Source of the DNA: Tanticharoenia sakaeratensis NBRC 103193
GTDB lineage: Bacteria; Pseudomonadota; Alphaproteobacteria; Acetobacterales; Acetobacteraceae
Assembly (NCBI RefSeq): GCF_000963885.1
Contig: NZ_BALE01000009.1
Location: 1 to 64,000, forward strand
Length of the DNA: 64,000 nt
Direction: 5' to 3'
Shown: positions 43,051-51,635 of the stretch, piece by piece
Numbering within the stretch: the stretch's first letter is position 1
How the letters are laid out: every line of letters starts with the position of its first letter
Made by a program: the position numbers and the translations under genes
The notes under the pieces: model-generated
What the model was told of the DNA's origin: nothing
Seen by the model: the letters and a program-made list of their open reading frames with translations, nothing else
Databases searched by the model: none

Positions 43051-44391
43051 ATGAATGGCCGGACAAGCGGACCTCCGGATCGGAACGGTTCATTCTTTTC
43101 ACAGCCCGCGGGTGCACGGTGCAAGCTGCTATCGGCAACCATGCTCGCCCTCGGGCTTGCGGCCTGTGCAGGCGGGGGCTCCGAAAACACGCCCGCGGGC
43201 GGCGTCGGCGGCCTTCCGCCAGCGCCTGCAACGCCTCAGGCAGCATCCGTCGGCGCTCTTCTGCCGCTGTCCGGCCCGATGGCGGGACTTGGGCACGAGA
43301 TGCTCGATGCGATGCATCTTGCGCTGCCGAGCGGCCCGAGCATGCCCGAGATCGATGCGCATGATACTGCGGCACCGGGCGGCGCCGATACGGCCGCGCG
43401 GGAAGCGATTGGCCATGGCGACAAGCTTCTGCTCGGGCCGCTGACGGCGTCCGACACAGCGAAGGTCGCTCCGCTCGCAATCGCTGCGAACACACCGGTT
43501 CTGGCGTTTACCAGCGATACGAACCGCGCGCAGGCCGGTGTCTGGACTTTGGGACTGACGCCGGAACAGCAGGTCAGGCGCATGGTGTCGGCTGCCAAGG
43601 CGGCCGGGCGCCAGCATTTCGCGGCATTCCTTCCGGACAATGCACTGGGCCATGCGATGGGTCAGGCGCTGGTTCAGGCCTGCGCGGATGAAGCGCTTGC
43701 GCCGCCGAATGTCGTTTATCACGGTCCGACAGCCGATGCGATCCGCGGCAGCCTGCGCACGCTGTCGGCGTTCGACAGCCGACAGGCCAGCACAGCGCCG
43801 GCACAGCCGCCGGCGTCACAGAGCCCTGTCGATCCGGCTGTCGATCCGACAAGCGCCGGGCAACCGGCAGCGCCTTCACCTGCACCGGTGACGCCGCCCG
43901 CCAATCAGCCAGCCGCACCTCTTGCCCCACCGCCGTTCGACGCGCTTCTGCTGGCCGATACGGGTCTGCAGCTGGGTGAGACGATCAGCGCGCTTCAGGC
44001 CGATCAGGTCTCCGGAGACAAGGTACAGATCATGGGGCCTGCCCTATGGGATGCCTTCGCAACGAAGTTGTCGGCTCTGAGCGGTGCCTGGTATGCCGCG
44101 CCCGATCCGGCGGCCCGGCAGGGTTTCCTTCGGTCTTTCCGCCTGCACTACAAGATCACGCCGACGCCGGTCGCCTATCTGGCATTCGATGCGGCCGCGA
44201 TCGCGGGCATCATGGCGCATGCCGGGTACGATCCTGCGCGCCTGACGCAGTCGCAGGGCTTCTCCGGAACGGACGGCGTCTTCGCGCTGTCCCCTGACGG
44301 GCATGTGGCGCGATCTCTCGCTATTTTCGCAATTCAGAAGGGCGGCGGGTCACAGATCGCGATCCCTGCACCTGCCAGCGCACATTCCTGA
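43051..44391 (+). CDS. LpoA-like penicillin-binding protein activator
   Basis: 446 residues from the ATG at 43051; ATG 43027 is also in frame, and AGGAG stands 13 bases before 43051. A lipobox LAAC ends the signal (LALGLAACAGG). The mature protein is a type I periplasmic-binding fold (VGALLPLSGPMAGLGHEMLD), as in LpoA, which activates PBP1A in the outer membrane-peptidoglycan space. A proline/alanine-rich stretch of about 55 residues (STAPAQPPASQ... to ...LAPPPF) is inserted in the middle. Divergent from rsmI, as lpoA is in E. coli. Confidence 0.85.
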   Translation: MNGRTSGPPDRNGSFFSQPAGARCKLLSATMLALGLAACAGGGSENTPAGGVGGLPPAPATPQAASVGALLPLSGPMAGLGHEMLDAMHLALPSGPSMPEIDAHDTAAPGGADTAAREAIGHGDKLLLGPLTASDTAKVAPLAIAANTPVLAFTSDTNRAQAGVWTLGLTPEQQVRRMVSAAKAAGRQHFAAFLPDNALGHAMGQALVQACADEALAPPNVVYHGPTADAIRGSLRTLSAFDSRQASTAPAQPPASQSPVDPAVDPTSAGQPAAPSPAPVTPPANQPAAPLAPPPFDALLLADTGLQLGETISALQADQVSGDKVQIMGPALWDAFATKLSALSGAWYAAPDPAARQGFLRSFRLHYKITPTPVAYLAFDAAAIAGIMAHAGYDPARLTQSQGFSGTDGVFALSPDGHVARSLAIFAIQKGGGSQIAIPAPASAHS

Positions 44392-44425
44392 AGCGCGGGG
44401 CCGCCTTCGGGCGGCCGCACCGCTT

Positions 44426-44809
44426 TCAGGCGGCCGCGATATCGCGGATCGGAAGCACGGGGCGGATCGCGTTCAGCGCGGCCTCGAAGCTCGAGTAGAT
44501 ACCAAGATCGCTCTCGCGGATCTGGTCGATCAGAACCCAGCGCATGCCCTGGGGACGAATCAGGTAGGCCGGATCCGCGCTTTCGCGCACCCAGACCAGC
44601 ACGTGATTGACGACTTCGCCGCAACCGGGGCGGCTGTCGGAGTAGATGTCCGCGTCGCACAGGCCCATCCGCAGCCCGGCATCCAGCCAGCGCGCGAGAT
44701 ACTCGCGATGACGGGGCAGTACGTCCTGCCGGAGCGGAACGACATTACTGATGACAGCGGATTCAACGCGGTCGAACGGGCACTCTTGTTTAGAAAACGC
44801 CTGGGCCAT
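44426..44809 (-). CDS. Conserved-looking protein of unknown function
   Basis: 127 residues, probably cytoplasmic: no signal peptide, no membrane segment. The sequence is balanced and structured (LARWLDAGLRMGLCDADIYS, then MRWVLIDQIRESDLGIYSSF), so it reads as a real protein, but no family was recognised. Two related inverted repeats lie 130-215 bases upstream, so it may be under specific control. It converges on the LpoA-like gene with 34 bases between stops. Confidence 0.65.
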   Translation of the reverse strand: MAQAFSKQECPFDRVESAVISNVVPLRQDVLPRHREYLARWLDAGLRMGLCDADIYSDSRPGCGEVVNHVLVWVRESADPAYLIRPQGMRWVLIDQIRESDLGIYSSFEAALNAIRPVLPIRDIAAA

Positions 44810-44939
44810 GAACGGGTCCTTGCAAAAAGCGGGGACGAGGATCGGGCGAAGGCTGCGGCCGTGAGAAACATCACGCGACTGCGGGGCGATCGTGTGATGA
44901 AAAGTTACTCACCGAGTTGCCTGGTCCACAATCTTAAAT

Positions 44940-44957
44940 GTTCCGCAATTGCGGAAC
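44940..44957. promoter_or_regulatory. 18-bp perfect palindrome
   Basis: GTTCCGCAATTGCGGAAC is identical to its reverse complement. It lies 131 bases before the start of the unknown gene at 44426-44809, beside a possible promoter (TTAAGAT on the minus strand). A second, degenerate copy is at 45001. Such a symmetric site is most likely a dimeric repressor operator; the regulator is not known. Confidence 0.6.
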
Positions 44958-45000
44958 CGGCGCACAAATAGCGGGCAATGTGGCAAAAAAACCATGATCA

Positions 45001-45024
45001 GTTCCGCAAACGCCATAGTTGCGG
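45001..45024. promoter_or_regulatory. Second copy of the GTTCCGCAA/TTGCGG half-sites
   Basis: GTTCCGCAA, nine bases, then TTGCGG: the same half-sites as the palindrome at 44940 but spaced apart. The pair suggests a regulator binding two sites, or a site duplication that has drifted. Confidence 0.5.
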
Positions 45025-45095
45025 CAGTGAATCGTATTATGGATGCCTAATTTTTGTGCGCTGGCCCTGACTTTCTCCCGTTCGTGGCGGATTCA

Positions 45096-46019
45096 TCATT
45101 TTTCCGGGCGATAGAATGCCTTCGGGAAGCGTCGGTGCATCCAGAGCCAGCTTGCCGGCACCTCGCGGATCCAGGCTTCCATCCGGTCATTGATCGTCTG
45201 GGTCAGAGCCTGGATATCCGCCTTACGATCAGGGCCCGGCTCCGGCGTCAGCACGCGATCGACCGTCAGGGTGAACCGCGCCGGTCCGTCGCGACGCACA
45301 TGTCCCAGCACGATCGGCGCGCGATACTTCAGGGAAAACGCGGCAGCGGCGCTGGGCGTCATCGCCGGATATCCGAAAAGCCGGGCCTCGATCCCGTCGT
45401 TCATTTTCTGATCCGACAGGACGCCGAGATGCCCGCCGCGCGCGATGTGGAGCAGGGCCTCGCGGGCACCCTTCGCCCCTTTGGGAAAAAGCGGCGTCTC
45501 GATTCCCATGGCCTCGCGTCGCAGATCGCGCACCATGCGATCGACCAGCGGATTGTCGGCTGCACGATAGAAGGGGGCGAACGCCAGACCATAGCGCGCG
45601 CAGACCGGCGGCATGACCTCCCAGTTGCCGATATGCCCGGACACGAACAGGGCAGCACCACCTCGTGCCGCCTGATCGATCAGCATCTCTTCGCCCAGAA
45701 GTCGCCATCCCGGCCCGGCCGCCGTGTCGCGCTCCAGACCTGCGATATGCGGAAACTCGCCGACCGTGCGGCCGAGGTTTTCCCACATGTCCCGGATGAT
45801 CCGGCGATGCGCGCGCCCGCCGAGCCATGGCATGGCAAGCGTCAGGTTCCGCGCGGCGATGCGTGACACCGGAAGGCGAGGCCCGACGAGACGCGCCACG
45901 CGCCCCCCGAAATCAGAGGCGCGCGCCGGCCCGAGCTTGCGCAGCAGGGCAAGCACGCCGCTGGCGAGCCCCGCCTCGATACGATGCTGAAGACGGATTT
46001 TCGGTGCTGATTCGCTCAT
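45096..46019 (-). CDS. Lipid A acyltransferase, LpxL/HtrB family
   Basis: 307 residues, the standard length of LpxL/LpxM proteins, with an N-terminal hydrophobic segment. The acyltransferase motif is H-x4-E in FVSGHIGNWEVMPP. The LGVLSDQKMNDGIEARLFG block and the C-terminal WLWMHRRFPKAFYRP are also typical. It would transfer a fatty acid to Kdo2-lipid IVA on the inner membrane. It overlaps lpxK by four bases at its start (ATGA) and is the last gene of the uspA-waaA-lpxK operon. Confidence 0.9.
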   Translation of the reverse strand: MSESAPKIRLQHRIEAGLASGVLALLRKLGPARASDFGGRVARLVGPRLPVSRIAARNLTLAMPWLGGRAHRRIIRDMWENLGRTVGEFPHIAGLERDTAAGPGWRLLGEEMLIDQAARGGAALFVSGHIGNWEVMPPVCARYGLAFAPFYRAADNPLVDRMVRDLRREAMGIETPLFPKGAKGAREALLHIARGGHLGVLSDQKMNDGIEARLFGYPAMTPSAAAAFSLKYRAPIVLGHVRRDGPARFTLTVDRVLTPEPGPDRKADIQALTQTINDRMEAWIREVPASWLWMHRRFPKAFYRPEK

Positions 46020-46993
46020 GATGTGGCGAGTAACCGGTCCAGGATGGCTTCAGGTGCACGACGATCGGCCCAGCGCAGGCCGACACGCACGACGAACGCG
46101 CGGTCGCGCAGTTCTTCGGGCAGTTTCACAGCATCTTTCTCCGTGGTCGCAAGGAACGTGTCGCCGCGCTCGGCAAGCGCCAGAAGCCGGCTGACATCCT
46201 TGGCGCGATAGCGATGATGATCAGGGAAGGACAGGCATCGGACAGGCGTGATGCCGGCCTCGATGAGAGAGGAGAAGAATTTCGCAGGCCTGCCTATTCC
46301 GGCGAATGCGGTCACGCGCTTGCCGGCCAGCCGGCGCAGCGACAGGTCAGGTTCGATCCAGGCTTGCGTCCGCCACAGGCCCGGCGGCCACACGATCGGG
46401 CTGCGCTCGGTGCCGATGACGAGGGCCGCATCGGCTCGCAGCAGCGCGTCGTCCAGCGGCTCGCGGAGCGGCCCTGCCGGCAGCAGACGACCGTTGCCGA
46501 AGCCCATGGCACCATCGACCACGATCAGCCGGAATGTCTGTTCGAGCGTATGGTTCTGCAGGCCGTCATCCATGACGAGACAATCGGCGCCACTTGCGAT
46601 GGCGCGCCGCGCTGTCTCCGCACGATTGGCGCCAATCCATGTCGGTGCCACGGCGGCCAACAGCAGCGGCTCGTCTCCCACCGCATCGGCATCGTGGATC
46701 GCCGGATCGACGCGGATGGGTCCGGCCAGTCGACCGCCGTATCCGCGTGACAGGAAATGAGGCGTGCGACCGCGCAGGATCAGCCTTCGGGCAAAATCGA
46801 GGGCGGCGATCGTCTTTCCGGTGCCGCCAACGGTGACGTTCCCGCAACACAGAACGGGGACGCCGCAGACGAATGGCGCACGGCTCAGCCTGCGCTGTGC
46901 AATCTTCGCCGTGATCCGGGAAACGGGCTCGAGTGCCCGCGCCCGCATACCCGCAGGCGAGTACCAGAACGACGGCGGCCCGAGCACGGTCAT
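46016..46993 (-). CDS. lpxK: Tetraacyldisaccharide 4'-kinase
   Basis: 325 residues. The P-loop GNVTVGGTGKTIAALDFARR lies near residue 50, and the catalytic LVMDDGLQNHTL around residue 140 matches the DDGFQH motif of LpxK. It adds the 4'-phosphate in lipid A synthesis. It overlaps both neighbours by four bases (waaA upstream, the LpxL-like gene downstream), showing tight coupling of the lipid A and Kdo steps. Confidence 0.95.
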   Translation of the reverse strand: MTVLGPPSFWYSPAGMRARALEPVSRITAKIAQRRLSRAPFVCGVPVLCCGNVTVGGTGKTIAALDFARRLILRGRTPHFLSRGYGGRLAGPIRVDPAIHDADAVGDEPLLLAAVAPTWIGANRAETARRAIASGADCLVMDDGLQNHTLEQTFRLIVVDGAMGFGNGRLLPAGPLREPLDDALLRADAALVIGTERSPIVWPPGLWRTQAWIEPDLSLRRLAGKRVTAFAGIGRPAKFFSSLIEAGITPVRCLSFPDHHRYRAKDVSRLLALAERGDTFLATTEKDAVKLPEELRDRAFVVRVGLRWADRRAPEAILDRLLATS

Positions 46994-49026
46994 GCGCCGT
47001 ACTCCCGCGTCATGGTGTCGACCCTGGAGACCAGCGATGCGATCGTCGCATCATTCCCACCCGCACGTTCCCGTGCCCGGGCGCCCATTGCCGAAGCCGC
47101 ACTCGGGTCTGCCAGCAATCCTGCCACGCTGTCTGCCAGCGAATCATCCCGTGTCAGGATGGCGGCATCGCCAAGAGCCGCGAAGGCATCCTTGAAATTT
47201 TCTATGCGCAGGCCCGAAATCACGGCGCTTCCCAACCTCGCGGGCTCGTAGGGGTTATGTCCGCCGCCTGAAGGCGCGACCTCCAGAGAGTTGCCGACAA
47301 ATGCGACCGGACAGAGGCGATAGAACAGTCCGAGTTCGCCCAGCGTATCCGCGACCCAGAAGAAATCCGCCTCAGACGGTGTCTCACCCAGGCTCCGTCG
47401 CGGCGCATTATCAAGAATGGCCGAGACTGCCGCGCCGCGCGGGGGATGACGGGGCACGACGATCGTCAGCAGAGCGGGGAAGCGATCCCGCAAGCGCAAT
47501 GCGGCATTCCGGATGACCGCTTCCTCGCCCGGATGGGTCGCAGCGCACAACCACAGGGGGCGGTCTGTCAGAAAGGTGCGCAGCTCCGCGAGGTCGTCGG
47601 GGTCGGCGGCAAGCGGGGGGGCTGCCTTTTTGAGATCCCCCAGTTCAAGGACCTCGCGTGCACCCAAGGCCCGGAACCTGGTGGCATCTTCCGGGCCGCG
47701 TGCCGCAACCCAGGCCAGATCGCCAAAGAACGCCGAGGTCATGCGCCCCAGGCGTGTCCAGTGTGACCATGATCGTTCGGACATGCGCCCGTTGACGATC
47801 GCGACCGGAATCCCGCGGGCCCTGCATTCGCCGAGCAGCCCCGGCCAGATTTCGCTCTCCGCAAGGATGGCGGCGGCCGGGCGCCAGTGATCGAGAAAGC
47901 GGCCGATCCAGCGCGGCACATCGAACGGGATGAACTGATGCACAATGGACCCTGCATGGGCGCGTGCATGGCTCTCGATGATGTCCGCACCAGTGACGGT
48001 CGCCGTGGTGACCAGAATCGTGCGTGCGGGATCGGCGGCGACGAGGGCATCCAGCAGCGGGCGAAGCGAGATGGCTTCGCCCACGCTTGCGGCGTGCAGC
48101 CAGATCAACCGGCCGTCAGGACGTGGGAAGGCAGCAAAGCCCAGGCGCTCGCGGCGTCTGCTGCGAATTTCCCGCCCGCGGGTAATCCGCCGCTGCACCA
48201 GCGCAATCAGAAACGGCGCCGCCACGGTGCCGAATGCCGCCCATGCCCGATCCTGAAGGCGACGCGTCGCCACGCGGTGACGATGGAGCGCGGATTCGCT
48301 CGTCGACTTCAGGGCCGTCTCGAGTGCAGCCAGCTCGCAGCCGTCATCGAGCGGTTGGCCGCAGACGAAGATGCCGCGTCCGAAAGGGCGAGGGAGGACC
48401 ATGCGATCCCACGATCCCAGCCGCCACCCCGATGCAGCACCACCCACCGGCACGATTTTCCGATGGCCGAGCCGGGCCAAGGCAAGGGTGCCGGGTTGTG
48501 CATGATGAAGGGGGCCACGGGGCCCGTCAGGGGTGATGGCGACCAGCATGCCGGCCTGCAGGGCACGCGTTGCCTGACGCAGGGCCTGGGCGCCGCCCTT
48601 GTCCTTGCCGCGCCGGGATGTGGAGCCTGCAATGCCGATGATGTCCCATGGTGCCACGATGTCGCTGATGAGACGGCCATCGCGATTGCGACTGATTAGG
48701 ACACGAAGGGAGAGGGTGGGCTCGATCGCGCGCGCCCAGCTCCAGAGCGCTGGTGTCAGTGGCAGGATCTGATGCCAGAACGCCACCACGGCGCCCGCGT
48801 CGGCCTGCGCGGGCGAACGTGTCAGAAGAGCGCGGGCGTCGGGATGACCCTCGATCCGCCAGCGCGTCGTGCGCAGGGCGAAATCCAGATACAGGCGAAT
48901 GACACAGACCGCGATCGCATCTGGCCCTGATCGTGGCAGCGAAATTTCCGTATCGGCGCGAGATCCGATGTCGCCTGCATCCATGAGCGTCGCGGTAGCA
49001 TGGCGGCAACGCCTTGGCAAAAACAC
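46990..49026 (-). CDS. waaA: DUF374 acyltransferase-like domain fused to Kdo transferase WaaA
   Basis: Up to 678 residues in one uninterrupted frame. Residues 40-230 match the DUF374 lysophospholipid-acyltransferase-like domain: VVAFWHQILPLTPALWSWAR and AITPDGPRGPLHH. Residues 265-678 are WaaA (KdtA): LIWLHAASVGEAISL, AAILAESEIWPGLLGEC and APSGGGHNPYEPA. WaaA adds Kdo to lipid IVA; the role of DUF374 near kdtA is unclear. In many relatives these are two adjacent genes, so a fusion is notable. The start is GTG 49026 or ATG 48984; neither has a clear ribosome site. Confidence 0.88.
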   Translation of the reverse strand: MFLPRRCRHATATLMDAGDIGSRADTEISLPRSGPDAIAVCVIRLYLDFALRTTRWRIEGHPDARALLTRSPAQADAGAVVAFWHQILPLTPALWSWARAIEPTLSLRVLISRNRDGRLISDIVAPWDIIGIAGSTSRRGKDKGGAQALRQATRALQAGMLVAITPDGPRGPLHHAQPGTLALARLGHRKIVPVGGAASGWRLGSWDRMVLPRPFGRGIFVCGQPLDDGCELAALETALKSTSESALHRHRVATRRLQDRAWAAFGTVAAPFLIALVQRRITRGREIRSRRRERLGFAAFPRPDGRLIWLHAASVGEAISLRPLLDALVAADPARTILVTTATVTGADIIESHARAHAGSIVHQFIPFDVPRWIGRFLDHWRPAAAILAESEIWPGLLGECRARGIPVAIVNGRMSERSWSHWTRLGRMTSAFFGDLAWVAARGPEDATRFRALGAREVLELGDLKKAAPPLAADPDDLAELRTFLTDRPLWLCAATHPGEEAVIRNAALRLRDRFPALLTIVVPRHPPRGAAVSAILDNAPRRSLGETPSEADFFWVADTLGELGLFYRLCPVAFVGNSLEVAPSGGGHNPYEPARLGSAVISGLRIENFKDAFAALGDAAILTRDDSLADSVAGLLADPSAASAMGARARERAGGNDATIASLVSRVDTMTREYGA

Positions 49027-50792: not shown

Positions 50793-51635
50793 ATGTCAAA
50801 AGCCTCGCTTGCGCCAGCCACCGGAACGCTGATGCACGGCAAGCGCGGCGTGGTGATGGGCGTCGCCAACGACCGCTCGATTGCCTGGGCTATCGCCAAT
50901 GCCTGCGCGGCCCAGGGTGCCGAGCTGGCTTTCACCTATCAGGGTGAGGCACTGGGCAAGCGCGTGCGTCCGCTTGCGGAAAGCGTGGGTTCGGACATCG
51001 TCCTGCCGTGCGACGTCAGCGATGATGCCGCGATCGATGCGACCTTCGCCGAGATCGAACGCATCTGGGGCAAGATCGACTTTCTCGTCCATGCGATCGG
51101 CTGGGCGGACAAGCAGTTCCTGCGCGGGCGTTACGTCGACACCCCGCGCGACGCGTTCCTGACCGCGATGGACATCTCCTGCTACTCCTTCACGGCGGTG
51201 GCCAAGCGGGCGGCGGCGATGATGAACCCGGGCGGGTCGATGCTCACGCTGACCTATCTCGGCGGCGAGCGCTGGATGCCCCATTATAATGTCATGGGTG
51301 TCGCCAAGGCGGCGCTGGAGGCATCGGTGCGCTACATGGCGGCCGATCTCGGGCCCGACAATATCCGCGTGAACGCGATCTCGGCCGGTCCGATCATGAC
51401 GCTGGCCGCCAACGGCATCGGGGATTTCCGCTACATTCTCCGCTGGAACCAGCTCAATGCGCCGATGGAGCGCAATGTGACGCTGGACGACGTCGGCGGG
51501 TCGGGACTCTACTTCCTGTCGAGCCTGTCCTCGGGCGTGACGGGGGAGACCCATCACGTTGATTGCGGTTACCACATCGTCGGCATGAAGAACCCGAACG
51601 CGCCTGACATCGCGGTCGCCGGCGCCGGCGACTGA
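50793..51635 (+). CDS. fabI: Enoyl-[acyl-carrier-protein] reductase (NADH)
   Basis: 280 residues. The modified Rossmann start [19 protein letters not shown] and the active-site [12 protein letters not shown] (Tyr-x6-Lys) identify FabI rather than an ordinary [15 protein letters not shown] and [12 protein letters not shown] agree. It performs the last reduction in each fatty acid elongation round. Monocistronic or coupled to aroC, whose ATG lies 20 bases downstream. The ATG at 50793 is preceded by a long open frame without conserved content. Confidence 0.95.

Follow-up and report, generated by a model that had tools for sequence, protein, structure and literature searches.

In the genome of Tanticharoenia sakaeratensis NBRC 103193, two related dyads lie between an htrB-type lipid A acyltransferase gene and the presumed promoter of a downstream gene encoding a 127-amino-acid (127-aa) protein. 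The locus was analyzed within a DNA stretch of 64,000 nucleotides (the window). In our preferred, still tentative reading, the two dyads are an operator pair specific to this lineage, superimposed on a more ancient promoter shared by acetic acid bacteria. An operator is a reasonable interpretation because the pair is nonrandom, is found nowhere else in the genome, and is positioned between htrB and the presumed promoter. The palindrome would be a local operator at most and no widespread switch. The features of the locus are listed in Table 1.

Table 1. Features of the interval between htrB and the 127-aa gene and of its flanks (window coordinates).
Feature	Position	Strand	Sequence or description	Basis or remark
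127-aa gene	44426-44809	-	No recognized family	Adjoins htrB in 53/56 loci
Presumed -10 element	44902-44907	-	TAACTT, 18 bp from -35	Alignments and fixed-motif scan
Presumed -35 element	44926-44931	-	TTGTGG	TTG at +47 from box I; fixed-motif scan
47-nt spacer, box I to -35	44932-44978	-	Length kept, sequence variable	Contains site 1
Site 1	44940-44957	.	Perfect 18-bp palindrome, GTTCCGCAATTGCGGAAC	Sequence
Outer inverted repeat	44957-45064	.	Arms 44957-44977 and 45044-45064, 76% complementary	Encloses box I and site 2
Box I	44979-44996	-	CATGGTTTTTTTGCCACA, conserved upstream element of the 127-aa gene	Alignments and motif scan
Site 2	45001-45027	.	Imperfect dyad, GTTCCGCAA-N9-TTGCGGCAG	16/18 positions as in site 1
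htrB-type lipid A acyltransferase gene	45096-46019	-	Upstream neighbor, end of the lipid A gene block	PF03279, E 3.6e-37

The initial annotation placed the palindrome between lipid A genes and a gene without recognized family, and both flanks are as it described them. The lipid A genes waaA, lpxK, and the htrB-type acyltransferase gene are on the minus strand, and the 127-aa protein has no Pfam match above the cut-off, no NCBIfam match, and no sequence relative in the PDB. The gene was matched in 10 of 60 genomes searched (its own included, and one of the matches weak) and in 47 loci of a genome collection, the titles of which name Acetobacteraceae or genera that we take to be Acetobacteraceae. 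htrB is upstream of it in 53 of the 56 mapped loci, and an lppC-like gene is present somewhere in the stretch in 49 of the 56, at a distance of about 3 kb in two of these. An alignment of 26 of the 48 distinct proteins contains 23 invariant columns. Further along the lipid A block, a 678-aa open frame on the minus strand (46990-49026) carries a DUF374 domain (residues 105 to 172) and a Kdo transferase domain (residues 290 to 466), an apparent fusion located before lpxK.

Alignment of the intervals between htrB and the 127-aa gene revealed two conserved blocks in a regular layout: box I is followed after exactly 47 nt by TTG, and 17 to 18 nt after the -35 hexamer by TAnnnT. In relatives, box I is an 18-bp element resembling CATTGCTTTTTTGYCACA, and the presumed -10 element reads TAGCCT, TAGCGT, TACCGT, and similar. 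When representatives thinned at 85% identity were compared at fixed offsets without gaps, 22 of the 23 showed TTG at position +47 relative to box I (L011 and L045 were left out of this set). In the aligned regions, the spacer is 47 nt long in 48 of 52, and its sequence is not kept; the apparent 14-nt spacer of L011 reflects a failed alignment and is no measurement. In addition, an alignment-free motif scan located the best promoter exactly 47 nt from box I in 46 of 56 upstream regions, window included, with L008 and L055 (one contig) and other near-identical species counted separately. The ten exceptions are L009 (46 nt), L012 (34 nt), L048 (48 nt), L045 (57 nt), L010, L011, and L056 to L059. 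A box score of at least 15 was reached in approximately 0.6% of shuffled regions; the box consensus of the scan was written from the same sequences, so that its scores are not independent but the fixed distance is. L013, a weak match of 45 residues, was dropped before all counts, and L010 before the interval alignment. L009, L012, and L048, which have no htrB in the stretch, are absent from the interval alignment and spacer comparisons and included in the 56-region scan.

The conserved TTG and TAnnnT presumably form the promoter of the 127-aa gene. Promoters of Gluconobacter oxydans mapped by RNA sequencing are summarized as -35 ttGnnn and -10 nAtnnn, 16 to 23 bp apart (PMC5756330). TTGTGG-N18-TAACTT fits the -35 of that summary and the conserved A of its -10, not the weak third-position t. 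A scan for Escherichia coli-type promoters found nothing in 44300-45300. In its layout, with a weak -10 and a box exactly 47 bp from TTG in 46 of 56 loci, the region is similar to class I type activator-dependent sigma70 promoters, in which upstream sites have a fixed spacing. Box I is not known to match any described motif. In L012 (genome G010), a distant relative, the upstream sequence that best matches box I is a dyad, CTGTTGTAA-TT-TTACAACAG, with perfect 9-bp arms, which hints that box I, too, may be a dyad in degenerate form. The 5' untranslated region of the 127-aa gene is longer in the window than in relatives, and an inverted repeat, CATCACGCGA/TCGTGTGATG, spans 44869-44899 at the presumed start site and in this untranslated region.

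Site 1 had been annotated from the sequence as a perfect 18-bp palindrome, and both its letters and its coordinates are correct. The second copy, 43 bp away, was described as the same half-sites with a 9-base gap. This is accurate over 45001-45024, which reads GTTCCGCAA-N9-TTGCGG. However, the likeness is less complete over the full 9-bp arms, to 45027: the right arm is TTGCGGCAG instead of TTGCGGAAC, and site 2 therefore matches site 1 at only 16 of 18 positions. The gap between half-sites is 0 bp in site 1 and 9 bp in site 2.

In a window with 64.6% GC, perfect 18-bp palindromes occur twice (at 44940 and 51615), whereas 30 first-order Markov simulations gave 0.6 on average. A single palindrome is thus unremarkable, and the initial claim that the perfect symmetry was unlikely by chance does not stand. 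Dyads with 9-bp arms and gaps of 0 to 20 are also somewhat commoner than simulated (22 versus 14.6). Of 8,000 simulations, run under two background models, 0.04% and 0.05% produced a second dyad of at least this similarity no more than 150 bp away in either direction; over 846 further pieces of 150 bp from the window, the highest value was 15 of 18. The related pair of dyads is remarkable and beyond chance by simulation, although these figures overstate the surprise, since the site was picked by eye from 64 kb. The other perfect palindrome, GTCGCCGGCGCCGGCGAC (51615-51632), lies where an open frame, presumably for an enoyl-ACP reductase, ends.

These counts bear on a serious rival to the operator pair, neutral drift, in which the palindrome arose by chance in a rapidly evolving spacer, the resemblance of the box I flank to one of its halves is coincidental, and no protein reads the dyads. 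Such an origin is quite possible, if somewhat doubtful. Besides the frequency of palindromes and 9-bp arms in the window, it agrees with the location of the palindrome in the unconserved part of the control region and with the absence of the sites from every relative examined. Moreover, on the minus strand one half of site 2, GCGGAAC, coincides in part with the moderately conserved CGnAAC that flanks box I, which indicates that the second copy contains some older sequence. The rarity of the pair in the simulations argues against drift, as does the folding of the region: 196 and 198 of 200 shuffles folded less well than the 141 nt of 44930-45070 (z -2.2 on the minus strand and z -3.1 on the plus strand).

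The initial annotation considered that the palindrome might recur upstream of the gene in close relatives or at a regulon, or else at random throughout the genome. None of these was found in the genomes searched. Across the whole genome (3,506,749 bases in 94 contigs), TTCCGCAA-N0-12-TTGCGG occurs at two places, both at the palindrome locus. The motif is therefore not scattered over the 3.5 Mb, but its reversed control is almost as rare (one forward and one reverse match), so that the low copy number says little by itself. Allowing up to three mismatches to the palindrome added two further places, versus one for the reversed control, and the shorter core CCGCAA-N0-10-TTGCGG, with 7 places, fell short of its reversed control (9). 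Beyond the palindrome locus, the gapped, shorter-core, and three-mismatch searches of the genome thus gave no regulon clearly above the reversed-pattern control. The exact palindrome is absent from all 298 other family genomes; the single hit among the 299 sampled, drawn evenly from a larger group, is the source genome itself. A comparable dyad is likewise missing from the other 51 aligned spacers of the same gene, in which the best dyads score 2 to 6, compared to 9 in the source genome. Of the 52 spacers, that of the source genome is the only one whose dyad went unmatched in 200 mononucleotide shuffles. All relatives compared stand at genus distance or more from the source organism, and judged from these genomes the palindrome is not conserved at genus distance. 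The initial annotation had named absence from close relatives carrying the gene as a refutation, and at genus distance the comparison shows such an absence; the random genomic occurrence it also named was not seen. The 16-base core of the palindrome had no match in the literature searched, and looser and topic searches gave no title or abstract on the locus among the matches listed.

Several other identities were rejected. A mobile or repeated element (REP or MITE) is contradicted by 44925-45075 matching only itself, apart from short matches at E values of at least 0.86, which marks the region as single-copy. No plasmid match was obtained for 44800-45100 and no phage match for 41 bases of the region, and no known structured RNA was detected in the whole window by Rfam at gathering score. 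A direct repeat common to relatives at a lag of 61 bp was also dismissed, as this lag is outside the ten best of lags 12 to 79.

The position of the sites relative to the presumed promoter bears on how an operator might work. Site 1 is inside the 47-nt spacer, 8 bp upstream of the presumed -35. If transcription starts at about 44895, some 7 nt from the -10, as we infer, the centers of site 1, box I, and site 2 fall near -53, -92, and -119, respectively. The initial annotation had pointed to a dedicated repressor. An operator remains a reasonable interpretation, but the geometry does not favor repression, because site 1 stays clear of the presumed promoter, lying upstream of its -35. An activator, or a modulator of box I, would fit this position no less well.

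In the proposed operator mechanism, the 127-aa gene downstream of htrB would be transcribed from its own promoter, composed of box I, 47 bp, the -35, 17 to 18 bp, and the -10. A dimeric DNA-binding protein encoded elsewhere would bind sites 1 and 2, on either side of box I, and this binding would tune transcription of the 127-aa gene, whether by activation, by interference with any factor bound at box I, or by looping. In having an inverted repeat of 16 to 20 bp near a presumed promoter and a related second site nearby, the locus resembles the operators of dimeric regulators (TetR, MarR, GntR, or LuxR type). However, it differs from these in that a Pfam scan finds no regulator among the five neighboring proteins, the genome searches gave no regulon, and the site is present in no relative examined. 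In addition, half-sites spaced by 0 and 9 bp would hardly be read alike by one dimer. We count all of these points against the operator pair, together with the negative E. coli-type scan, the -10 without the weak t, and the overlap of one half of site 2 with the flank of box I.

We also considered a role in RNA, in which the lipid A mRNA (minus strand) would carry tandem hairpins at its 3' end that, together with the U tract of box I, act as a terminator or decay barrier. This lesser rival is unlikely, although the locus shares with intrinsic terminators and 3' hairpins its self-complementary sites, placed close to a T tract downstream of an operon. Site 1 can fold into a hairpin of 7 bp around an AAUU loop (-11.9 kcal/mol; z -3.8), a stability equaled in 2 of 200 shuffles, and the site 2 hairpin precedes a run of seven U. 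A stem leads directly into this T tract in two relatives, L005 (-18.0 kcal/mol) and L007 (-10.2 kcal/mol), and L022 and L023 have a 7-bp stem directly before box I; box I may thus double as a terminator tract in some relatives. Nevertheless, a terminator scan found no sites in 44300-45300, and the stem of site 2 does not directly adjoin the U tract. Its folding is matched by shuffles (z -0.5 and -1.2), as is that of the minus strand of 44981-45095 (z +0.6). An intrinsic terminator, which calls for a GC-rich hairpin with a U run immediately behind it, was accordingly rejected. Folding before box I covered 19 regions, and by our reading of the output most of the other 14 relatives lack a strong stem touching box I. 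Finally, the T-tract box also precedes the 127-aa gene in L048 and, in weaker form, in L009, with no htrB in either stretch, which ties box I to the 127-aa gene and not to the end of htrB alone.

Autoregulation, in which the 127-aa protein controls its own gene from box I and perhaps, in this lineage, from the dyads as well, is very improbable. In line with a single-target site, the 12-base core of box I occurs once each in three of six genomes searched (G000, G022, and G025), always at the locus of the 127-aa gene; it occurs twice elsewhere in G030 and is absent from G008 and G001. However, the reversed control is about as rare, so that a single copy proves little. With the core single-copy or absent in most of these genomes and the control behaving alike, box I was also rejected as a regulon site. 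A structure model of the 127-aa protein has an N-terminal helix and a five-strand sheet, but its confidence is low (pLDDT 67), it has no PDB fold match at an E value of 0.001 or below, and no DNA-binding family is recognized, TrmB matching 2 of 26 members at an E value of 0.13 at best. A broader and rather speculative proposal, to which we give little weight, is that the 127-aa gene is under locus-specific control. A dedicated factor, possibly its own product, would read box I at the strict distance of 47 bp, and in this lineage the dyad pair added around box I would tie the gene to another signal, perhaps the state of the envelope.

Box I, the fixed 47 bp, and the presumed promoter together make up a clear regulatory footprint, which spans genera of acetic acid bacteria and precedes a family-less gene that is kept beside lipid A genes. 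With its fixed spacing, box I is a stronger lead to the regulator of the 127-aa gene than the palindrome. The footprint offers a concrete probe for this regulator and for a possible link of the 127-aa gene to the outer membrane.
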